Below are positions 1 through 12,717 of a stretch of 22,486 bases of DNA, one piece after another (the stretch's first letter is position 1; every line of letters starts with the position of its first letter). This stretch comes from a virus. The notes beneath the pieces were generated by a model. It was not told the origin of the DNA. It made no database searches and saw only the letters and a list, made by a program, of their open reading frames with translations. The position numbers and the translations under genes were made by a program. The DNA lies in the IMG/VR virus record IMGVR_UViG_3300035698_011428, positions 1-22,486 of that record. The stretch is one strand, 5' to 3'.

Positions 1-879
1 GCGACCCTTATCGGGATGTTCGTACCACGGAAGCATGAACACTTTTATCTGACCTGAATTAATCCAACTACTATATTCTGTTCCGGCTCCAGCGGGAGTA
101 CTATTTACTATACGACAAGGAGTTACGTCAGCCGTCGCTGATCTCATCGCCTCGCCATTCTCCACTTTCGCAAACTCATCGAGTAATACGATCTTTCGCC
201 GGTCGCCAGATGCAGCATTAGGAGTCGTTGATTCGCCGTCGATAATACTATTCGTTATCGAATTGAATAAGTGCATTTTCGTTCTGTTCGGTTCCCCCTG
301 CCCAACACTTGGGGGACGCATCCACTCGGGCAACCAGCTATTTATATAATCGTGTTTCCAGAACAAGGCTTTTGGATTTCCTGTTTTATCGACGTAATCC
401 TCTGTCCGTGATAACTCTAGTAACATACAGTCTTCATAGAACAACCAGTACCAATGAAGTAAAATCAAACAACACCAACTGGCCCCCATGTCACGGCTCT
501 TTTTAATCCCAAGATCCTCGCCATTTTCCACAGCCCATATAAGTTCCCCAAAGAACCGATCCTGTATTTCCCATGTAACCATTGGTACATGACTTTGAAC
601 GGCGGGTATTTTATTTCCATCAGGCAATATATCAAACTGCTTAAAGGTCCAAACGAATACATTCACAAAAAATAACAATGAGTCCTTACACGCCCGCATA
701 AGTTCTTCCTGCAAACCGATATTATGTTCCGCCTTACGGAGAAGAGTTTCGCGGTACCGTTTATTCGCCTCGACGTCTTTGGGAACTTTAAGTCCAGTCA
801 CAGGACAAACCCAAAACGGTTTAACGTCGGGAAAGGGGGTTTTAAGTTTGGGGGCCGTAATTAAATTACCTAACGCCAT
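1..879 (-). CDS. terL: Terminase large subunit (N-terminal 293 residues, cut by window edge)
   Basis: This is the ATPase half of the phage DNA-packaging motor, which drives genome into the prohead. The reading frame is open from ATG at 879 to base 1 with no stop, so the C-terminal nuclease domain lies outside the window. A Walker A variant (KKSRDMGAS, residues 126-134) is followed by a Walker B strand ending in acidic residues (KIVLLDEFA, 229-237, D234/E235) and a coupling-type motif (NSTPAG, 259-264). That order and spacing fit terminase ATPases. It starts one base after the stop of the putative small subunit, the usual terS-terL order. The ribosome site (GAGAG) is weak, so translation may be coupled. 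Confidence is high for family and moderate for the exact start. Confidence 0.93.
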   Translation of the reverse strand, partial: MALGNLITAPKLKTPFPDVKPFWVCPVTGLKVPKDVEANKRYRETLLRKAEHNIGLQEELMRACKDSLLFFVNVFVWTFKQFDILPDGNKIPAVQSHVPMVTWEIQDRFFGELIWAVENGEDLGIKKSRDMGASWCCLILLHWYWLFYEDCMLLELSRTEDYVDKTGNPKALFWKHDYINSWLPEWMRPPSVGQGEPNRTKMHLFNSITNSIIDGESTTPNAASGDRRKIVLLDEFAKVENGEAMRSATADVTPCRIVNSTPAGAGTEYSSWINSGQIKVFMLPWYEHPDKGR

Positions 880-880
880 A

Positions 881-1237
881 TTAACTCTCGTCTGCGATCT
901 CGTTTATTTTTGTTTTAGTCGTCTCACTTATACGATCTGCCACAGTTTTCTTCGTCTTGTCCGAAGCCACATCTTGAACTTTGCCTTCTATCCGCTCCAG
1001 AAGAACTTTCATGTATGACAAATTAGGCAGATGCTCGATCTCAGTTCCGTCTTTTACATTCTCTACTTTGAAACCCAAAGTATTCTTCCAAATAATCTCT
1101 GCGAGTTTTTCGGCCCGGGTACACATCCGGGACTCTTCGCCATCGTCTATGCAGGCGTCCTCCTTGCTGGCCATGTCTGTCAAATACTTACTTACCAGAC
1201 GAGACGCCTTCGCTCTACTACTCTTTTTCTTCGCCAT
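881..1237 (-). CDS. terS: Probable terminase small subunit
   Basis: A 118-residue basic, helical protein immediately upstream of the large terminase gene. Small terminase subunits bind the packaging site on phage DNA and load the large subunit. The middle of the protein (RAEKLAEIIWKNTLG, then LSYMKVLLERIEGKV) resembles the helical block common in phage small-terminase-like proteins, where a LAEKLW-type helix is followed by an IKEILDRIEGK-type helix. The N-terminus is very basic (MAKKKSSRAKASR), which suits DNA binding. The start ATG at 1237 has CGGAGT a few bases upstream. The call rests on position plus this resemblance; no catalytic motif exists to confirm it. Confidence 0.68.
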   Translation of the reverse strand: MAKKKSSRAKASRLVSKYLTDMASKEDACIDDGEESRMCTRAEKLAEIIWKNTLGFKVENVKDGTEIEHLPNLSYMKVLLERIEGKVQDVASDKTKKTVADRISETTKTKINEIADES

Positions 1238-1370
1238 GTTTTACTCCGTCGTGGGTCATCCATGAACATTTACAACACCCAGGACAGTGTGATCTCACTA
1301 CCCTCGGGTCTGTTGTGTGTTCTACATTTCCGCATAGGGGACATACCCATTTAGTTTTGGCCCGCTGCAA
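1218..1370 (-). CDS. Small zinc-ribbon protein, start uncertain
   Basis: The 113 bases between the protease gene and the small terminase gene are not empty. One frame reads WVCPLCGN, a spacer, then HCPGCCKCSW, a zinc ribbon with paired cysteines, ending at a TAG that overlaps the next gene by 20 bases. No ATG is in frame. A TTG at 1370 would give 50 residues and overlap the end of the protease gene, and a second in-frame TTG lies further upstream. A competing ATG frame from about 1350 gives only 26 residues with no motif. The cysteine pattern supports a real gene, perhaps translated by coupling. Its function is unknown. Confidence 0.45.
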   Translation of the reverse strand: MQRAKTKWVCPLCGNVEHTTDPRVVRSHCPGCCKCSWMTHDGVKHGEEKE

Positions 1371-2025
1371 TTTCTTGTCGTCTATATTTCTCAAGCAACT
1401 CTCTACCTCTCGCTATCGGTACTGCCAAATTAGCTTCTATGCCCGTATAGAAAACTGTACCACCCACTACAATCCCTACTAAACGTCCTTGCATATCAAA
1501 CAACCCGCCACCCGAGTTACCGTGAGTTATTTCGGCGTCGACCTGTATTAGATCCACACCAAACGAAGATCCATTACGATGAATATTCGACACAATACCC
1601 GACGACACGGTATTTAAAACTCCGAGCGGATGCCCTACTACGTATACAGACTCTCCGAGTCGTGGGTATACACCGCTTAACCCAACATGTGGGGCATCTT
1701 CGATATCGATTTTCAAAATCGCAATATCATTATTCGGGCCCACTATAATTGTGGTGCTCATATATTTTACGCCGTCGATCATCGTGGCAATCATAACATC
1801 TTGGTCCTCAACAACGTGTTTGGCTGTGACCAACCACCCATCATCGGAGATCAATACTCCCGCACCCATCCAACCGGCAAATCCCGGACGGAGTTCTACA
1901 ATCGCCGGTAAAGTTTTATCAACAAGATCGGGGAGGGTGTTCATATTGGCGGGGATACACACATGGGCCCCCGCACCAATAAATAACACTACCAATATCC
2001 CCACCATTGCCGCGAGTTGTCTCAT
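1351..2025 (-). CDS. Exported trypsin-like (HtrA/DegP-type) serine protease without PDZ domain
   Basis: A 224-residue chymotrypsin-fold protease. The triad is visible in order and context: His70 in TAKHV, Asp100 in NNDIAIL, Ser171 in HGNSGGGL. The GNSGGGL and VVGHPLG blocks match HtrA/DegP-family proteases more than digestive trypsins. Residues 1-22 form a basic start followed by a hydrophobic stretch (MVGILVVLFIGAGA), a signal peptide or membrane anchor, so it should act outside the cytoplasmic membrane. HtrA proteins usually carry C-terminal PDZ domains; here the protein ends after the protease domain. GGAGGTTAGG lies directly before the ATG. It shares a strand with an SPFH membrane protein and an MgtC-like protein. 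A capsid-maturation role is possible but an export signal argues against it. Confidence 0.88.
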   Translation of the reverse strand: MRQLAAMVGILVVLFIGAGAHVCIPANMNTLPDLVDKTLPAIVELRPGFAGWMGAGVLISDDGWLVTAKHVVEDQDVMIATMIDGVKYMSTTIIVGPNNDIAILKIDIEDAPHVGLSGVYPRLGESVYVVGHPLGVLNTVSSGIVSNIHRNGSSFGVDLIQVDAEITHGNSGGGLFDMQGRLVGIVVGGTVFYTGIEANLAVPIARGRELLEKYRRQEIAAGQN

Positions 2026-2036
2026 CCTAACCTCCG

Positions 2037-2351
2037 TTATGCGTTGTCGCTGATTTTTACTACGTAGGCTTTACAATCAAAGTTATTCCCAAAGCCATCC
2101 GTAGTATCTTCACAGAGAAGCATCAAAGCTGTCCCGGTCGCTTTTACATCAAGCCACCCACCCGGAGCAATTACACCCGTGATATTACCGACAGTATCGG
2201 GGTCTGCATAACCCATCACCAATATGCCATTCGCAGGAGCGAACACTCGATATTCCTCACCGACTACGAGTGTAGCATCGGCTTTAGCCCCATCTGCAAG
2301 AGAAACTATTTGGGCGTCACCAGCTTCGCACACTATACCATTACAGTTCAT
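2037..2351 (-). CDS. Small beta-rich hypothetical protein
   Basis: A 104-residue protein of unknown function. It has alternating hydrophobic strands and many Gly, Asp and Thr residues, with blocks such as LVVGEEYRVFAPANGILVMG and WLDVKATGTALMLL, so a compact beta-sandwich is likely. No signal peptide or membrane segment is visible. Four cysteines are present, two in the first eight residues (MNCNGIVC). GAGGG lies upstream of the ATG. Size, composition and position between the protease and packaging genes would suit a virion decoration or fibre-associated protein, but this is inference. Confidence 0.7.
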   Translation of the reverse strand: MNCNGIVCEAGDAQIVSLADGAKADATLVVGEEYRVFAPANGILVMGYADPDTVGNITGVIAPGGWLDVKATGTALMLLCEDTTDGFGNNFDCKAYVVKISDNA

Positions 2352-2367
2352 ATTATTTCCCTCTTAC

Positions 2368-2619
2368 TTAATTTAATATTCTGGCTTTCGTTCTTTCCCG
2401 AGTAGAAGGGAAATTCACTTTATATATGGGTTCATTATTCCTTTCATGGCATAATTGTTCGCCACATTTTTTGCAAGACACAATAACTTCTATGAGTTGT
2501 CCGCCGACGACATCGTTCTCGATTATGCAAAAATCCTCACGGAACAAATGTGAAACATAAATATCACGATGACGACATCGAAAGAAAAAATCCCACGCCT
2601 TTAAAAATAACTTCCTCAT
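2368..2619 (-). CDS. Small cysteine/histidine-containing hypothetical protein
   Basis: An 83-residue protein. After a short basic-aromatic N-terminus (MRKLFLKAWDFFFRCRHRD) it carries CKKCGEQLCHE near residues 49-59, a probable zinc knuckle; the N-terminal CRHR may supply other ligands. It follows the membrane microprotein gene with one base between, and has AGGGGGC upstream of the start. No enzyme motif is seen. It belongs to the large set of small metal-ligand proteins in this window. Confidence 0.65.
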   Translation of the reverse strand: MRKLFLKAWDFFFRCRHRDIYVSHLFREDFCIIENDVVGGQLIEVIVSCKKCGEQLCHERNNEPIYKVNFPSTRERTKARILN

Positions 2620-2620
2620 A

Positions 2621-2707
2621 TTATGCCCCCTTCTTAATTTTATTGACTAAATAACTAACGCGGAGTACCGCGAAAATTATAATTGCAATAGCGAGTACTT
2701 CTCTCAT
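2621..2707 (-). CDS. 28-residue single-pass membrane microprotein
   Basis: A very short frame whose ATG overlaps the TGA stop of the SPFH gene as ATGA, the same coupling used between larger genes here. The product reads MREVLAIAIIIFAVLRVSYL then a basic tail ending KIKKGA. This is one hydrophobic helix of about 16-18 residues followed by Lys/Arg, so an N-out/C-in orientation is likely. It fills the gap between the SPFH gene and the next ORF exactly, with one base to the following ATG. Its coupling to SPFH suggests a partner or regulator of that membrane protein. It could also be a small holin- or antiholin-like peptide; nothing in the sequence decides. Confidence 0.6.
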   Translation of the reverse strand: MREVLAIAIIIFAVLRVSYLVNKIKKGA

Positions 2708-3234
2708 TCAGCCGAAACTCCCGAGCCGTTCGTCAATAACCTGATGTTACGGGCTCTTCCTAGGTCCGTGATATAAACTTTTTGCAAACGAAGCCCCCAC
2801 CCATTGGCTTCCTCGCGTATTTTTTTGAGTATGCGATTTCCCAGTTCCTCAGTATCGGATAGCTCGTTCTCGGTTAGAGTACTCGCCACAGCAGACAAAA
2901 CGCCCAAAGCCAACGCTTGAAGGCTCTGGTCATAGTCATTAACCTCGAGCATGGCTTTACGGATATTACTTACTTTATATTGAATAGCCCCACTAACTAT
3001 CATATTCTGATGATCCAAAGAATATATACTCTGATTTCTAAGATCAACCACTTGAGTAGTTACTGTAGTATAAACAATCTCTTGGATAATGGGCCATAAA
3101 AAATACCACCCCGGGATCAGTATTTTTTCCCGGGTACCGAGCGTAACCTTAACGCCCAGTTCATCGGGCTGGATCAATTCGATCCTCGGTATCAATTTCT
3201 TTACAGCTTCAAAAAATTTGGACCAAAATCCCAT
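2704..3234 (-). CDS. SPFH/Band 7 (stomatin/prohibitin-like) membrane-associated protein
   Basis: A 176-residue protein with the start of an SPFH domain. IQPDELGVKVTLG (about 21-33) matches the VxxGExGVxxxxG opening of stomatins, ILIPGWYFLWPIIQEIV (38-54) matches their PGxHFxxPFI segment, and VVDLRNQSIYSLDHQNMIVS (62-81) is the conserved strand pair. A helical region (about 110-150) then corresponds to the end of the domain. SPFH proteins oligomerise on membranes and often scaffold or restrain proteases (HflK/HflC with FtsH, prohibitins). It lacks a long coiled-coil tail and a clear N-terminal transmembrane helix, so it is a minimal version. The start overlaps the previous stop (TAATG), with GGAG 12 bases upstream. 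A 28-residue membrane protein is coupled at its end. Confidence 0.85.
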   Translation of the reverse strand: MGFWSKFFEAVKKLIPRIELIQPDELGVKVTLGTREKILIPGWYFLWPIIQEIVYTTVTTQVVDLRNQSIYSLDHQNMIVSGAIQYKVSNIRKAMLEVNDYDQSLQALALGVLSAVASTLTENELSDTEELGNRILKKIREEANGWGLRLQKVYITDLGRARNIRLLTNGSGVSAE

Positions 3235-3455
3235 TAGTTTCCGCTCCTACGCTGTGCGATTCCTACTTCGGAACGCTCTATCTGTCGATCTAAGACAATG
3301 TCTGTCACGTCTGCTATAAACTTCTTACCGTCGATAACTCCCATCATTTCGTCCGCAAATTCTTCCGGCGTCATGTTCGGCTCATCAAAAAACTCTCCAT
3401 GGAACTTTGTCCGGTAGGCTCTCATTTCCGCCGAAGATTTTTTAACTCGTACCAT
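3234..3455 (-). CDS. Hypothetical protein upstream of SPFH gene
   Basis: A 73-residue charged, probably helical protein with a basic N-terminus (MVRVKKSSAEMRAYR) and an acidic middle (DEPNMTPEEFADEMMG). No cysteines or membrane segments. AGGA lies upstream of the ATG and its TAA overlaps the SPFH start, so the two are likely translated together. Not recognised. Confidence 0.65.
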   Translation of the reverse strand: MVRVKKSSAEMRAYRTKFHGEFFDEPNMTPEEFADEMMGVIDGKKFIADVTDIVLDRQIERSEVGIAQRRSGN

Positions 3456-3466
3456 TTTAATTCCTA

Positions 3467-3619
3467 TTACGGTTTAACGGCTTCCGCTCGGGCCGCATTA
3501 TCTTTTTTAATCTGGGCCACGGCAGCTTTATACCGTTTGGTGTCTTTTCTGACTATTTCGGCTTCTACCAGAGATCTAGCGTCTTGCTCAATCTCCCATT
3601 TTTTATCATCCTCAGTCAT
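3467..3619 (-). CDS. Small charged helical hypothetical protein
   Basis: About 50 residues from the ATG at 3619, which has GGAG six bases upstream. An in-frame ATG at 3655 would add 12 residues but has poorer spacing. The sequence MTEDDKKWEIEQDARSLVEA, then a run rich in Lys, Ala and Glu, resembles a small DDKxWxAExDARxL-type protein often met in phage accessory regions whose function is unknown to me. The 107 bases upstream (3620-3725) contain only very short frames without ribosome sites. Confidence 0.6.
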   Translation of the reverse strand: MTEDDKKWEIEQDARSLVEAEIVRKDTKRYKAAVAQIKKDNAARAEAVKP

Positions 3620-3725
3620 TGGTATCTCCATATTAGCCACATCTTCCCCACACATAGTCCTCTAGTATATTATCGGCAATCACGGCACATATATCCAATA
3701 AAATACTATTATTTTTTAAATTTAT

Positions 3726-3899
3726 TTATAAATCTTCGGATGAGAGTAATTTCTCCTCCAAGTTACTAATATGGCGGATCGCCTCGTTGAGTTTTACCGT
3801 AAGTAGTTCTATTCGCTGAGTCGACGACAACGGAATCTGGAACGACCCCACAGCGTCGAATACTATGGCCATTGTCGTACCCGGTATTTGTTCAATCAT
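3726..3899 (-). CDS. Small hypothetical protein coupled to the MgtC-like gene
   Basis: A 57-residue frame whose ATG overlaps the TGA of the MgtC-like gene (ATGA). AGGGGAAAG lies directly upstream. The N-terminal half (MIEQIPGTTMAIVFDAVGSF) is mildly hydrophobic and strand-like; the C-terminal half (LTVKLNEAIRHISNLEEKLL) is a strong amphipathic helix with heptad spacing, so it may form a coiled coil. Not recognised. Coupling suggests it is made with the MgtC-like protein. Confidence 0.6.
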   Translation of the reverse strand: MIEQIPGTTMAIVFDAVGSFQIPLSSTQRIELLTVKLNEAIRHISNLEEKLLSSEDL

Positions 3900-4297
3900 T
3901 TCTTTCCCCTAAATTTATTTATAAACTTTTCGACGGGCGATAACCCGAGTAACACTACTAATACCAAGAGCGTCGTAACAGTGGCAAGGCCGTAAAACCC
4001 TAGCCCACATGCGATCCCGATACCCGATGTGGCCCAAATTCCTGATGCTGTAGTGAGACCACTGGTACCTCCGTCCTTGTGTAGAATCGATCCAGCCCCT
4101 AGGAACCCCATGCCAGTAACAACGGCGGCCACAACCCGACTGGGATCGCCCCCAATATGTCCGGAGATTATCGTGAATATTGCGGCACCCAAAGCGATCA
4201 GAATATTTGTCCGGAGTCCCGCCGGTTTTTTAGACATTTCTCGCTCAAGTCCGATCAAGCCGCCGAGTATAATCGCCATGATGAGGTTCACTACCAT
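3896..4297 (-). CDS. MgtC/SapB-family membrane protein
   Basis: A 133-residue integral membrane protein matching the membrane domain of the MgtC/SapB family: GGLIGLERE (12-20) followed by KKPAGLRTN (23-31), GMGFLGAGSIL (62-72), and GLTTASGIWATSGIGIACG (80-98). About four hydrophobic helices are visible, ending in a basic tail. Salmonella MgtC supports growth at low Mg2+ and inside macrophages and inhibits the F1Fo ATP synthase. The longer family members have an extra C-terminal cytosolic domain that is absent here. An AGGAG sits eight bases before the ATG at 4297 and overlaps an in-frame GTG at 4306, so ATG is the start. It is the first gene after a 249-bp gap with a candidate promoter. A phage-borne copy is unusual. 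Confidence 0.9.
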   Translation of the reverse strand: MVVNLIMAIILGGLIGLEREMSKKPAGLRTNILIALGAAIFTIISGHIGGDPSRVVAAVVTGMGFLGAGSILHKDGGTSGLTTASGIWATSGIGIACGLGFYGLATVTTLLVLVVLLGLSPVEKFINKFRGKK

Positions 4298-4505
4298 AAT
4301 TATCACTCCTATCTGTGACCTGCGGTCGACAAAAAACTACATATATGCCTCAATATATTTTTTTGCTTTTTCCAAGCAGTACACGATTATATAGACTTTT
4401 CACACTTCTTCAATATATCATTCTTGATGTATTACTACCACGAAGTTAAAACAACATGCTGTTTCGTACATTCTGCACATTAACATGTCTGCGGTTAAAA
4501 TGCAA

Positions 4506-4532
4506 TTATTATGTTACCATACAATGTGTCAA
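4506..4532 (-). promoter_or_regulatory. Candidate leftward promoter before the MgtC-like operon
   Basis: On the minus strand a perfect TTGACA (4532-4527) is followed by TAATAA (4511-4506) after 15 bases, or AATAAT after 16. The spacing is short compared with the 17 bp of the rightward promoters. It lies in the only sizeable leftward gap, just past the endonuclease VII stop. Downstream in the leader, 4449-4464 is a near-perfect 16-bp palindrome (AAACAACATGCTGTTT, one mismatched pair) that could be an operator or a weak hairpin. Confidence 0.42.
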
Positions 4533-5368: not shown

Positions 5369-5596
5369 TTAGTGGCCGTGTGAACAGGGAAGACATACCA
5401 GTTCCGGAGTGGCCCCCTCTATATTGAGTGTCACTTGGGTCATTTTGCCTATTGGTATTTCCTTCCCGCAAATCCCGCAGCAACCACCCTGTTTAGCATA
5501 GAGTGGTTTAAATGCCTCTTTTTCTGCGGCTGATCTTTCTGCCCGTTCGAGTGCTCGCCTACCTTTGGCGTTTCTGTTACGCATGTCCATTTTCAT
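5369..5596 (-). CDS. Second degenerate endonuclease VII-fold zinc protein
   Basis: A 75-residue protein, first gene of the leftward arm. It has a basic helical N-terminus (RNRNAKGRRALERAERSAAE) followed by FKPLYAKQGGCCGICGKEI (C40, C43) and ELVCLPCSHGH (C68, C71), aligning with the other two paralogs. The segment between the pairs (IGKMTQVTLNIEGATPE) has no DH, so catalysis is unlikely. Starts at 5596 or at the second ATG at 5590, which is better spaced from AAAGG. No clear sigma-70 promoter is seen just upstream on this strand, although a 6-bp inverted repeat (ATCGTC-N6-GACGAT, 5631-5648) lies 35 bp ahead. Confidence 0.7.
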   Translation of the reverse strand: MKMDMRNRNAKGRRALERAERSAAEKEAFKPLYAKQGGCCGICGKEIPIGKMTQVTLNIEGATPELVCLPCSHGH

Positions 5597-5970
5597 TTCC
5601 TTTCCGATTAATAATTAGTTCTACTATACTATCGTCATTTAGGACGATTTTGTCCAGTAAAATATTTTTATTTTTTATATATTGTAGTTATTGAAGTACT
5701 TTCCAACATCCCAAATGAAGAATCCTTATTTTTGAGCTAAAAACCCTGTCCCCCACAGACCAGACAACACGTCAATACCGGTCCCTCTATAGGCCATTTA
5801 CTAATAAACTACATATTACGATATATTATACATATTATAGTTTATTATATTTCTTCTATAGACTTCCTATACCTCTAGGGACAGGGGGGACAGTAATATA
5901 TAGTGTTATAAGTTATTTAATAATAAGGGGTTAGGGTGGCCTAAGTATATTATGTTTTGCTAGGAACTGG

Positions 5971-6091
5971 GGGGTCATGTCGGGGACTACTCTATATTGT
6001 TTATATTTTATTTTTTATATCTGCGTGGGGTCCGAGAATAGGTACCCTTCTACCCCGGGTCATATATGAAGGGGTCATACCCCGGGGGTCA
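5971..6091. repeat. GGGTCA iteron-like repeats
   Basis: The hexamer GGGTCA, mostly extended to GGGGTCAT, occurs at 5972, 6057, 6072 and 6086 in the same orientation; the last three are 14-15 bp apart. A related GGGGTCC lies at 6027. Two of them flank CCCCGGG palindromes. Regular spacing near helical repeat multiples suggests binding sites for an initiator or repressor. Confidence 0.5.
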
Positions 6092-6408: not shown

Positions 6409-6437
6409 TTGACATTACATATCAGACCTGCTATAAT
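6409..6437 (+). promoter_or_regulatory. Sigma-70 promoter P1 (extended -10)
   Basis: TTGACA (6409-6414), 17-bp spacer, TATAAT (6432-6437), with TGC immediately before the -10. Both hexamers are perfect consensus. The predicted start near 6444 gives a leader of about 36 bases to the ATG at 6480. Confidence 0.9.
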
Positions 6438-10519: not shown

Positions 10520-10696
10520 GTGGGTGATAAAAAAACAATCGAAGAACTCTGGCCGGACCCGTCGCCAAAATTGACGCCGAGAGATATGACAAAAGAAGTT
10601 ATGGGACGATGCCGAAGATGTGGCACCGTATTCGGTATTTTGCCCGAACAAAGTAAGGCGTGTCCTAAGTGTAAAGTTATTCATATTCAAGCATAG
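10520..10696 (+). CDS. Small zinc-ribbon protein (GTG start)
   Basis: A 58-residue protein. The GTG at 10520 is chosen because GAGGGTATAAA precedes it, the same ribosome-site form as before 6803; an upstream in-frame ATG at 10466 lies inside promoter P5 and would not be transcribed. The N-terminus is acidic-proline (IEELWPDPSPKLTPRD); the C-terminal half is a zinc ribbon with CRRC (C34, C37) and CPKC. Function unknown. Confidence 0.72.
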   Translation: MGDKKTIEELWPDPSPKLTPRDMTKEVMGRCRRCGTVFGILPEQSKACPKCKVIHIQA

Positions 10697-10723
10697 AGGA
10701 CCTATTAGAATTGAGGAAGTAGT

Positions 10724-10924
10724 ATGTATCTCGATAAAAAAAATACTAGGCTACGTATTTTAGAAAAGGTCAAACGGGATCGACCCGGGTGGTTATGTAC
10801 GAGAGTGTCCGAAAAAGTATTACGTCAGTTGGATATTAAAATCGACGCGATGCTAGATCAGGCTATTCATAGCCACCCGAGCAAAGGGAAAACATTCAGT
10901 CAAATTCTATTCGGAGGTAAATAA
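10724..10924 (+). CDS. Small basic hypothetical protein
   Basis: A 66-residue basic protein, with RVSEKVLRQLDIKIDAMLDQ followed by HSHPSKGKTFSQIL. The RVS...L..L then HPS.GKTF pattern is one I recall from small phage proteins without assigned function. GAGGAAGTAGT precedes the ATG. Short Lys/Arg-rich N-terminal helix suggests DNA contact. No cysteine cluster. Confidence 0.68.
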   Translation: MYLDKKNTRLRILEKVKRDRPGWLCTRVSEKVLRQLDIKIDAMLDQAIHSHPSKGKTFSQILFGGK

Positions 10925-10927
10925 GTT

Positions 10928-11140
10928 ATGATAGGGACAAAGGCCTACTGTAGAAGTTGCGGAAATTTCTTTTACATTGTACTCCGCACAAGTCGATGGG
11001 TTAAAACATGGATAAAACATCACAGAACCGGCGAGGACGTATTTGTTTTCAAAAAACAAAAAGCTACCTCCCAAAAATATGCGTCTGTGACGGGTGTTCC
11101 GTGTCCGAGGTGCAAAAAACATAAATTAGCGAGGGCATAA
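10928..11140 (+). CDS. Small zinc-ribbon protein
   Basis: A 70-residue very basic protein with YCRSCGNFF (C8, C11) near the start and CPRCKKHKL near the end, a split zinc ribbon with about 48 residues between the pairs. A tryptophan- and lysine-rich middle (RWVKTWIKHHRTGEDVF) could bind RNA or DNA. GGAGG in the end of the previous gene serves as ribosome site. Not recognised. Confidence 0.7.
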   Translation: MIGTKAYCRSCGNFFYIVLRTSRWVKTWIKHHRTGEDVFVFKKQKATSQKYASVTGVPCPRCKKHKLARA

Positions 11141-11285: not shown

Positions 11286-11420
11286 ATGAGTCAGAGTAAA
11301 GCCAGTAAACTGAGAGAACACAAGTATCTTATGAGTATTGAAGCTCGCCGGATGAAGGGTATCGGATCGTCACAGCGTAAAAAGAGCCCAAGACACGGAG
11401 GGCTGAACTTTGGGAAGTAA
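11286..11420 (+). CDS. Small basic hypothetical protein before the sigma-like gene
   Basis: A 44-residue basic protein (MSQSKASKLREHKYLMSIEA, then RRMKGIGSSQRKKSPRHGGL). AAAGGAATAAATT precedes the ATG. Its TAA is one base from the ATG of the sigma-like factor. Too short to classify; the basic, Gly/Ser-rich tail looks flexible. Confidence 0.52.
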   Translation: MSQSKASKLREHKYLMSIEARRMKGIGSSQRKKSPRHGGLNFGK

Positions 11421-11421
11421 A

Positions 11422-12042
11422 ATGACTTTCGAACATTACTATGCCACTACTTTTGAGACGTGGGTGGACCGATTTGCTACACGGCTTAATGATCGCGAAG
11501 AGGCCGAGGATCGTGTTCAACTTATATTCACTCGCTTGATCCCCCGTAAGGAATTTTGTGAAGATCTGATTGCGAAAGGGGAAATGGACAAATATATTAA
11601 TCGTTGTCTCTGTTTGCAACGTGTGGATATATACCGGGATCAATATGGAAGGGGCACTGGTACAGGACGTATGCCCACGGTCAGCATTGATCCAGAGAAT
11701 ATAGATTTTTTGTCTTCTCTACGGGGCAACCAACAAAACTCCGAGGCAGAGGAAGCCGCCGAGTTAAATAATTTTTATGACAAGGCCCTCAAATTACTAG
11801 ACAACCCTCGGAGGGTAATAGCAGAATGTGGATTCGAAACCATCGGTGATTTACGACAGTATATACTCATCCAGTACACGCGGAATGGTCGGACTTTTGC
11901 GGAGATTGCTAAGTTGACGGGGGTGCCCCGGTCGAGTATACACGAACATTATCGAAAGATCGTCGCGGCGATTATACCCGCCATAGAAGAATTTATTGGG
12001 GAAAAATTAGATATCTCGGAAAATGGTCTGGATATTTCTTGA
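11422..12042 (+). CDS. Sigma-70/ECF-like factor or sigma-fold regulator
   Basis: A 206-residue protein resembling a divergent ECF-type sigma factor. The N-terminal part (EEAEDRVQLIFTRLIP, then YINRCLCLQRVDIYRDQYGR) has the helical pattern of sigma region 2. The C-terminal part has a helix-turn-helix like region 4: RTFAEIAKLTGVPRSSIHEH at residues 157-176. The linker contains an acidic, Gln-rich segment. It would bind RNA polymerase to redirect transcription or act as a phage regulator; region 2.4 promoter-contact residues are not obvious. ATG at 11422 is preferred over the in-frame TTG at 11410. The 126 bases after it (12043-12168) hold no consensus promoter and no gene. Confidence 0.65.
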   Translation: MTFEHYYATTFETWVDRFATRLNDREEAEDRVQLIFTRLIPRKEFCEDLIAKGEMDKYINRCLCLQRVDIYRDQYGRGTGTGRMPTVSIDPENIDFLSSLRGNQQNSEAEEAAELNNFYDKALKLLDNPRRVIAECGFETIGDLRQYILIQYTRNGRTFAEIAKLTGVPRSSIHEHYRKIVAAIIPAIEEFIGEKLDISENGLDIS

Positions 12043-12168
12043 AGAATAGCCGATAGATAGGTAGTGGAAAGAGAAAACGATCAACTGGCCCCGACCAAAT
12101 TGATAAAGTGCTAGAGAGGGTCGACTTCATTTTTCCAATGTTTTTAAAACGTAGTGATGGAGAGCAAA

Positions 12169-12717
12169 ATGTACCCAAGATGTACCCGTTGTAATAATAG
12201 AGGTTCCCGGTATTGTGATACCTGCCACGCGGATTCGAAGGCTGGTACCCGTTCTAATTGGACGCCGAGGGTCACAAAGCCTGTAATCACCGGTGTAAAT
12301 CCCAAAGACGCTATTGGAGCAGCGAAAAATCCACATGGTTGTGTATCTCGTGCTGTTTTAGCCGAGGTTGGACTTGCTATGATGGAGGGTGCCCGGAAAT
12401 ATGGTCGACATAATTATCGAGTCTCTCCTGTCCGAGCCGAAGTTTATTTCGATGCTTGTAATCGACATTTAGACGCTTGGTGGGAAGGCGAGGATATAGA
12501 TCCAGATAGTGGACTGCCCCATCTTACTAAGGCTATTGCGTGTCTATTTGTGGTACGAGACGCTATTATAAATAACAGTTGTTGTGATGATCGTCCGCCG
12601 AAAGTTCCAGTAGAACATCGGGGATATATTAAGGCCCGGGTCGCTGAGATTTTAGAGAAATATCCAGAGTGTAAACCGCCATACACAGAAGCGGGGGGCA
12701 AAAATGAAATATCCTGA
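12169..12717 (+). CDS. dATP/dGTP diphosphohydrolase-family (DUF5664-type) protein with N-terminal zinc ribbon
   Basis: A 182-residue protein. Residues 1-20 are a zinc ribbon (CTRC, then CDTC). The rest matches the all-alpha phage family named after dATP/dGTP diphosphohydrolases: NPKDAIGA, SRAVLAEVGLAMMEGARKYG, HNYR, FDACNRHLDAWWEGED and LPHLTKAIACLFVVRD, with metal-binding acidic residues in the helices. Members include MazZ-type enzymes of phages with 2-aminoadenine DNA, but many relatives are in phages without it. GGAGAGCAAA precedes the ATG at 12169; an in-frame GTG at 12154 overlaps that site. It overlaps the MazG-like gene by 14 bases, so the two likely act together on the dNTP pool. Confidence 0.8.
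   Translation: MYPRCTRCNNRGSRYCDTCHADSKAGTRSNWTPRVTKPVITGVNPKDAIGAAKNPHGCVSRAVLAEVGLAMMEGARKYGRHNYRVSPVRAEVYFDACNRHLDAWWEGEDIDPDSGLPHLTKAIACLFVVRDAIINNSCCDDRPPKVPVEHRGYIKARVAEILEKYPECKPPYTEAGGKNEIS

Follow-up and report, generated by a model that had tools for sequence, protein, structure and literature searches.

The stretch of DNA analyzed here, called the window at its full length, is a 22,486-base IMG/VR virus record (IMGVR_UViG_3300035698_011428). On its left arm, upstream of the gene for the terminase large subunit (TerL), lies a set of genes for a truncated SPFH/Band 7 protein, a membrane peptide, a beta-rich protein and a trypsin-fold protease. The SPFH, beta-rich and protease genes keep one order in the window and in four related contigs (L002, L003, L004 and L011), the peptide gene is coupled to the SPFH gene, and the SPFH protein and the protease have each lost domains. 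The set probably acts on the host cell envelope. In leftward order, the arm comprises MgtC, three small open reading frames (ORFs), SPFH, the peptide, an 83-amino-acid (aa) ORF, the beta-rich protein, the protease, a Zn-ribbon protein, a 118-aa protein and TerL, with the following features.

4505..4532, minus strand: promoter-like site TTGACA-16-AATAAT upstream of MgtC (consensus match only)
3896..4297, minus strand: MgtC-domain membrane protein, 133 aa, accessory, in this phage only (PF02308)
3726..3899, minus strand: small 'NLEEKLL' ORF between MgtC and the promoter-like element (counterparts in L002, L004 and L011)
3669..3697, minus strand: promoter-like element TGGATA-17-GATAAT upstream of the WEIE/SPFH unit (consensus scan; similar in the four relatives)
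3467..3655, minus strand: small 'WEIE' protein upstream of the SPFH unit (in five of five contigs, 56-78% identical to the window)
3234..3455, minus strand: 73-aa ORF with a one-base overlap with the SPFH start (RSEAGIA-like C-terminal motif, similar in L003 and L011)
2704..3234, minus strand: truncated SPFH/Band 7 protein, 176 aa, SPFH core only (PF01145; in five of five contigs)
2621..2707, minus strand: 28-aa single-span membrane peptide, start overlapping the SPFH stop as ATGA (hydropathy; counterparts in L002, L004 and L011)
2368..2619, minus strand: 83-aa ORF between the peptide and the beta-rich gene (ORF list; not seen in the relatives)
2037..2351, minus strand: beta-rich protein, 104 aa, eight-stranded jelly-roll-like model (AlphaFold; in five of five contigs)
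1351..2025, minus strand: predicted exported or membrane-anchored Deg/HtrA-like trypsin-fold protease, 224 aa, no PDZ domain (PF13365, triad, hydropathy)
1218..1394, minus strand: Zn-ribbon-like protein, 58 aa, overlapping the protease gene 3' end (ORF list; counterparts in L002, L004 and L011)
881..1237, minus strand: 118-aa protein in the small-terminase position (ORF list; counterparts in L002, L003, L004 and L011)
1..879, minus strand: TerL, cut by the window edge (PHROG terminase large subunit, 4.7e-10)

An earlier note on this DNA had described MgtC, SPFH, the peptide and the protease as one four-gene cassette. The four genes lie where it had placed them, but they are not contiguous: five other small ORFs are interleaved, three between MgtC and SPFH (3726-3899, 3467-3655 and 3234-3455) and two between the peptide and the protease (2368-2619 and 2037-2351). 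The list held for SPFH, the peptide and the protease, whereas MgtC dropped out of it, and the conserved beta-rich and WEIE proteins had been omitted.

For the conservation analysis, IMG/VR pattern scans were seeded with SPFH, the protease, the beta-rich protein and TerL, and they resulted in the four relatives. The protease-seeded scan missed L011, although the ORF list of L011 contains a protease that passes the Pfam cut-off. The TerL-seeded scan, the least biased, found no close TerL relative without the set in IMG/VR; its fifth match, L017, was a 25% partial one. The TerL of the window is about 80% identical to those of the relatives, and identity to the window was 67-72% for SPFH, 62-64% for the protease and 55-66% for the beta-rich protein. 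The order WEIE, SPFH, beta-rich protein, protease, 118-141-aa protein and TerL was common to the five contigs. The WEIE protein is 49-62 aa long across the clade, and its conserved start is probably the inner Met (MTEDDKKWEIE). The joint occurrence expected by the earlier note was thus found for SPFH and the protease beside TerL in five of five contigs and for the peptide in four, whereas MgtC occurred in one; the relatives' contigs are fragments, and what is absent from them may lie elsewhere in their genomes.

The ratio of nonsynonymous to synonymous differences (pN/pS) was 0.17-0.30 for SPFH, 0.31-0.42 for the protease, 0.21-0.49 for the beta-rich protein and 0.29-0.66 for the peptide, with synonymous divergence (dS) near saturation. 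Because pN/pS is low despite near-saturated synonymous change, the four genes appear to be under coding constraint, the short peptide being the least certain. HNH genes, MgtC, the 83-aa ORF and an extra L011 ORF were gained or lost around the retained set. The association of SPFH, the beta-rich protein and the protease is more than chance, with one order kept across five divergent contigs and pN/pS of 0.17-0.49.

The SPFH and protease assignments of the earlier note were confirmed by Pfam profile searches. For SPFH, PF01145 matched with an E-value of 5.4e-25 (88.9 bits against a cut-off of 23.6), and the closest solved structures to its profile were QmcA and the stomatins. The assignment as HflK or HflC was rejected, as the scores were far below the cut-offs (34.2 vs 159.4 bits, 1.7e-8, and 21 vs 134.4 bits, 1.2e-4). 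Across the five contigs, the SPFH proteins are 175-177 aa long. None has an N-terminal membrane segment, the best 19-residue hydropathy within the first 45 residues being 0.44-0.88 in five of five. The N-terminal anchor of SPFH/Band 7 proteins is absent in a few soluble subfamilies. The C-terminal coiled-coil oligomerization domain was not found either: the Pfam match ends at residue 159 of 176 and leaves about 17 residues, so there is no room for it. By comparison, in 192 genomes of one phylum nearly every cellular SPFH match lay in an open frame of at least 248 aa, and the products of the named-phage SPFH genes that were inspected are about 269-355 aa long. A short SPFH protein of 171 aa, about 28% identical, was also seen in an unrelated phage contig (L008:7926-8441, plus strand) whose record has no trypsin-like protease; SPFH truncation is therefore not unique to the clade.

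The peptide, MREVLAIAIIIFAVLRVSYLVNKIKKGA, has 28 residues (2621-2707, minus strand), and its ATG overlaps the SPFH TGA as ATGA. Its best 19-residue hydropathy is 2.33 and its net charge is +4; with its counterparts, the hydropathy ranges from 2.0 to 2.7. The peptide is present in four of the five contigs (window, L002, L004 and L011), and the ATGA overlap with the SPFH stop was found in the window, L002 and L011. In L004, SPFH and the peptide are separated by an HNH endonuclease gene (5498-5995) that overlaps each of them as ATGA; in L003, an HNH gene (10527-11036) directly follows SPFH, and no peptide was seen there. A second, similar membrane peptide precedes the NLEEKLL gene in L002 (9395-9527) and L011 (1850-1945), in the slot that MgtC occupies in the window.

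The protease matched PF13365 (Trypsin_2) with 6.1e-25 and PF00089 (Trypsin) with 4.4e-13. Its triad, H70, D100 and S171, is invariant across the five homologues, and the nearest solved structures are HtrA/Deg protease domains. An N-terminal hydrophobic segment, identified by hydropathy only and not by a signal-peptide predictor, was present in five of five, from which the protease is predicted to be secreted or membrane-anchored. No PDZ domain was matched by Pfam, and only 56-65 residues follow GNSGG in the five contigs, which leaves no room for one; HtrA proper was thereby ruled out. The protease matched no NfeD or ClpP family, and membership in a stomatin-NfeD operon was ruled out as it lacks NfeD. 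A known defence system was also discarded, the PADLOC matches being generic trypsin-like protease domains only. The beta-rich protein was modeled by AlphaFold with a predicted local distance difference test (pLDDT) of 77.7 as an eight-stranded, jelly-roll-like fold of moderate confidence; fold searches gave no firm identity, and the protein resembles uncharacterized small Caudovirales proteins.

MgtC carries a complete PF02308 domain (1.3e-38, 132.5 bits, model positions 1-120 of 121). Its start is most likely the ATG at 4297, behind GGAGTG; the GTG start of the ORF list overlaps the GGAGTG site. The protein is short (133 aa) and membrane-domain-only, without the C-terminal soluble domain: full-length NCBIfam models matched over the first ~137 of 215-231 positions, below cut-off. 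It occurs in the window only, one of five clade contigs, and each of the four relatives, fragments though they are, includes the stretch upstream of SPFH. A promoter-like element (TTGnAA or TGGAnA, ~17 bases, GATAnTATA-like) stands upstream of the SPFH unit in five of five contigs. In the window, L002 and L004 it separates the NLEEKLL gene from the WEIE/SPFH unit, and in L011 it is located further upstream. Consensus promoter matches in the region were near chance (18 vs 15.8 in shuffles), so the support for this element is its conserved position and not the scan. Because it occurs in one of five contigs and lies upstream of the element, MgtC is an optional, lineage-specific neighbor in a separate upstream unit, and it was ruled out as a cassette member. 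The closest MgtC found in a limited search was from Parcubacteria/Patescibacteria (~50%), a phylum with matches in 31 of 287 genomes; with a search so limited and that share of genomes matching, no host was inferred from it. The scan of genome contigs gave no SPFH relative, and no tRNA genes were found. On the plus strand, at 6409-6437, the window has a sigma-70 promoter that fits the consensus perfectly (TTGACA-17-TATAAT, the -10 preceded by TG) and points toward the rightward arm.

SPFH genes are widespread among phages, with 99 records matching the Skarpretter protein. SPFH genes have been described in PaP3-related Pseudomonas phages (PMC8540360), GIB1 (PMC13239085), Xanthomonas phage X1 (PMC13384950), DLP3 and DLP5 (PMC7326821, PMC5834331), and in phage SH19 the SPFH gene adjoins an annotated superinfection exclusion protein (PMC3220722). 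The SPFH proteins of this clade had no tblastn match in 50,697 phage records; in the same records, the L003 major capsid protein had no named-phage relative and TerL only distant ones. In N4 and Pasto, the gene of a small hydrophobic protein overlaps the SPFH gene start. Across 11 SPFH neighborhoods of other phages, no trypsin-like protease is annotated nearby, so the SPFH-protease pairing looks specific to this clade, although many of the neighbors are unannotated hypotheticals. Trypsin-like proteases of other phages are without an annotated SPFH neighbor and are sometimes beside lysozyme genes. The earlier note knew of no such combination in a phage, and a limited full-text search likewise found no paper describing it, which is weak evidence.

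Our preferred reading, held tentatively and at somewhat under even chances, is a conserved envelope module of the late region. The coupled peptide would tether the SPFH core, and the exported protease would act on proteins of the envelope, remodeling the membrane or excluding competitors. The peptide would fix the soluble SPFH core to the host membrane from the inside and would supply in trans an anchor that is built into ordinary stomatins. The protease, exported via its N-terminal segment, would cut host envelope proteins during infection, probably late. The net effect may be local remodeling of the host membrane, such as the exclusion of competing phages or preparation of the envelope for release. 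This reading draws on the order kept in five of five contigs, including those reached from TerL alone, while the surrounding ORFs changed; on the low pN/pS, the ATGA coupling and the export segment and intact triad of the protease; and on the overlaps with hydrophobic genes in N4 and Pasto and the SH19 SPFH gene beside a superinfection exclusion protein (PMC3220722). A more specific version, a 'split stomatin', in which SPFH core and anchor are separate, coupled polypeptides that jointly control an exported PDZ-less Deg protease in late infection, seems improbable to us. In that version the system would parallel the stomatin-STOPP pair but be independent of it and built on another class of protease.

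Several observations weigh against the envelope module. The peptide is missing from L003 and is therefore not indispensable, and late expression is taken from gene position only. The structure prediction of SPFH was poor (pLDDT 49.7) and gave no usable model of oligomer or anchor. Moreover, the five contigs form one clade, so synteny alone may reflect common descent, and because they are related and their arm is syntenic, conserved order alone cannot prove joint function.

The last points lead to the alternative that survives best, although it is somewhat unlikely: independent genes whose order is kept by co-linearity of the structural arm, with no joint function. TerL is ~80% identical and the flanking structural genes are co-linear too, and unrelated phages have SPFH and trypsin-like proteases separately. 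However, the set stayed while the HNH genes, MgtC, the 83-aa ORF and the extra L011 ORF came and went. In addition, the SPFH and protease proteins diverged by 28-38% at the amino acid level, at which useless genes are unlikely to have been kept, although separate functions may also fit this.

An unconventional lysis module, in which the peptide is holin-like, the protease helps to open the envelope and SPFH affects the timing, is unlikely. Lambda-type phages keep their lysis genes just upstream of the terminase, which is where this set lies. In Sulfitobacter phage pCB2047-C and Rhizobium phage RHph_TM3_3_14B, trypsin-like proteases have lysozyme genes next to them or close by, and no endolysin or holin was recognized among the L003 proteins scanned; that negative covers a portion of the proteins of L003, a contig that may not be complete. 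However, the coupled peptides matched no holin family and the best E-value, 0.33 for one upstream L002 peptide, was not significant (a test that very short peptides limit), L003 has no peptide, and we know of no lysis module in which an SPFH protein has a place. The complete four-gene cassette, in which MgtC would take part by altering the host energy state, is very improbable: the four genes share a strand within 3 kb and the literature connects MgtC proteins with F1Fo ATP synthase (e.g., PMC6658541), but MgtC is in one of five clade records, is separated from the SPFH unit by the promoter-like element and is a short, domain-only form below the full-length cut-offs.

Other features of the window and the related contigs were recorded. 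The Zn-ribbon ORF (1218-1394, minus strand) overlaps the protease gene 3' end by about 44 bases, and L002, L004 and L011 are similar; in L003, the ORF would be hidden by the 60-aa listing cut-off. The 118-aa protein (881..1237) had no family match in profile searches. On the plus strand, the 12154-12717 protein matched the PHROG families 'endolysin; inhibits RNA polymerase' (2.5e-54) and 'dATP/dGTP pyrophosphohydrolase' (1.2e-23), and the lysis label looks doubtful. The 11410-12042 protein (plus strand) resembles sigma-70 factors of the extracytoplasmic function (ECF) type (TIGR02937, 3.7e-8, below cut-off), and its homologues stand in tandem in L003 (1218-1829 and 1795-2520). A related 48.9-kb contig encodes a GroES-like co-chaperonin (L024:1654-2250, minus strand; PF00166, 7.9e-11).

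Among known systems, prokaryotic stomatin with STOPP/NfeD (PH1511-PH1510) is similar in that an SPFH gene with a stomatin/QmcA-like core adjoins a membrane or exported serine protease. However, the window protease is trypsin-fold and Deg-type, whereas the STOPP partner is a ClpP-class NfeD, and the window SPFH has neither an N-terminal anchor nor a coiled coil, nor the C-terminal hydrophobic region. The last is the region of stomatin that PH1510 cuts (PMC10153343, PMC2636767). HflK/HflC-FtsH likewise ties SPFH proteins to a membrane protease, but the window has no FtsH-type protease and scores far below the cut-offs of the HflK/HflC models. HflK/HflC-FtsH is known for an effect on phage development (lambda cII). 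The SPFH proteins of named phages (N4 gp20, the Skarpretter band 7 protein and those of Pasto and other phages) are also phage-encoded SPFH domains, but they have about 269-355 aa, lie in other genome regions and have no annotated trypsin-like protease nearby; BLASTP gave no similarity between the window SPFH and N4 gp20. With the HtrA/Deg proteases (DegS, DegP and AlgW), the window protease shares the trypsin fold, the His-Asp-Ser triad and the N-terminal export segment, whereas it lacks PDZ. With MgtC/SapB, the window shares the complete PF02308 domain, whereas its form is short, membrane-domain-only and restricted to one phage of the clade. A minimal set of SPFH, protease and peptide is small, expressible and testable. 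The components are each of known kinds; what is new is their conserved combination and a stripped-down SPFH with a separate anchor candidate, which suggests that SPFH proteins can do without their usual anchor and coiled coil or have them provided separately.

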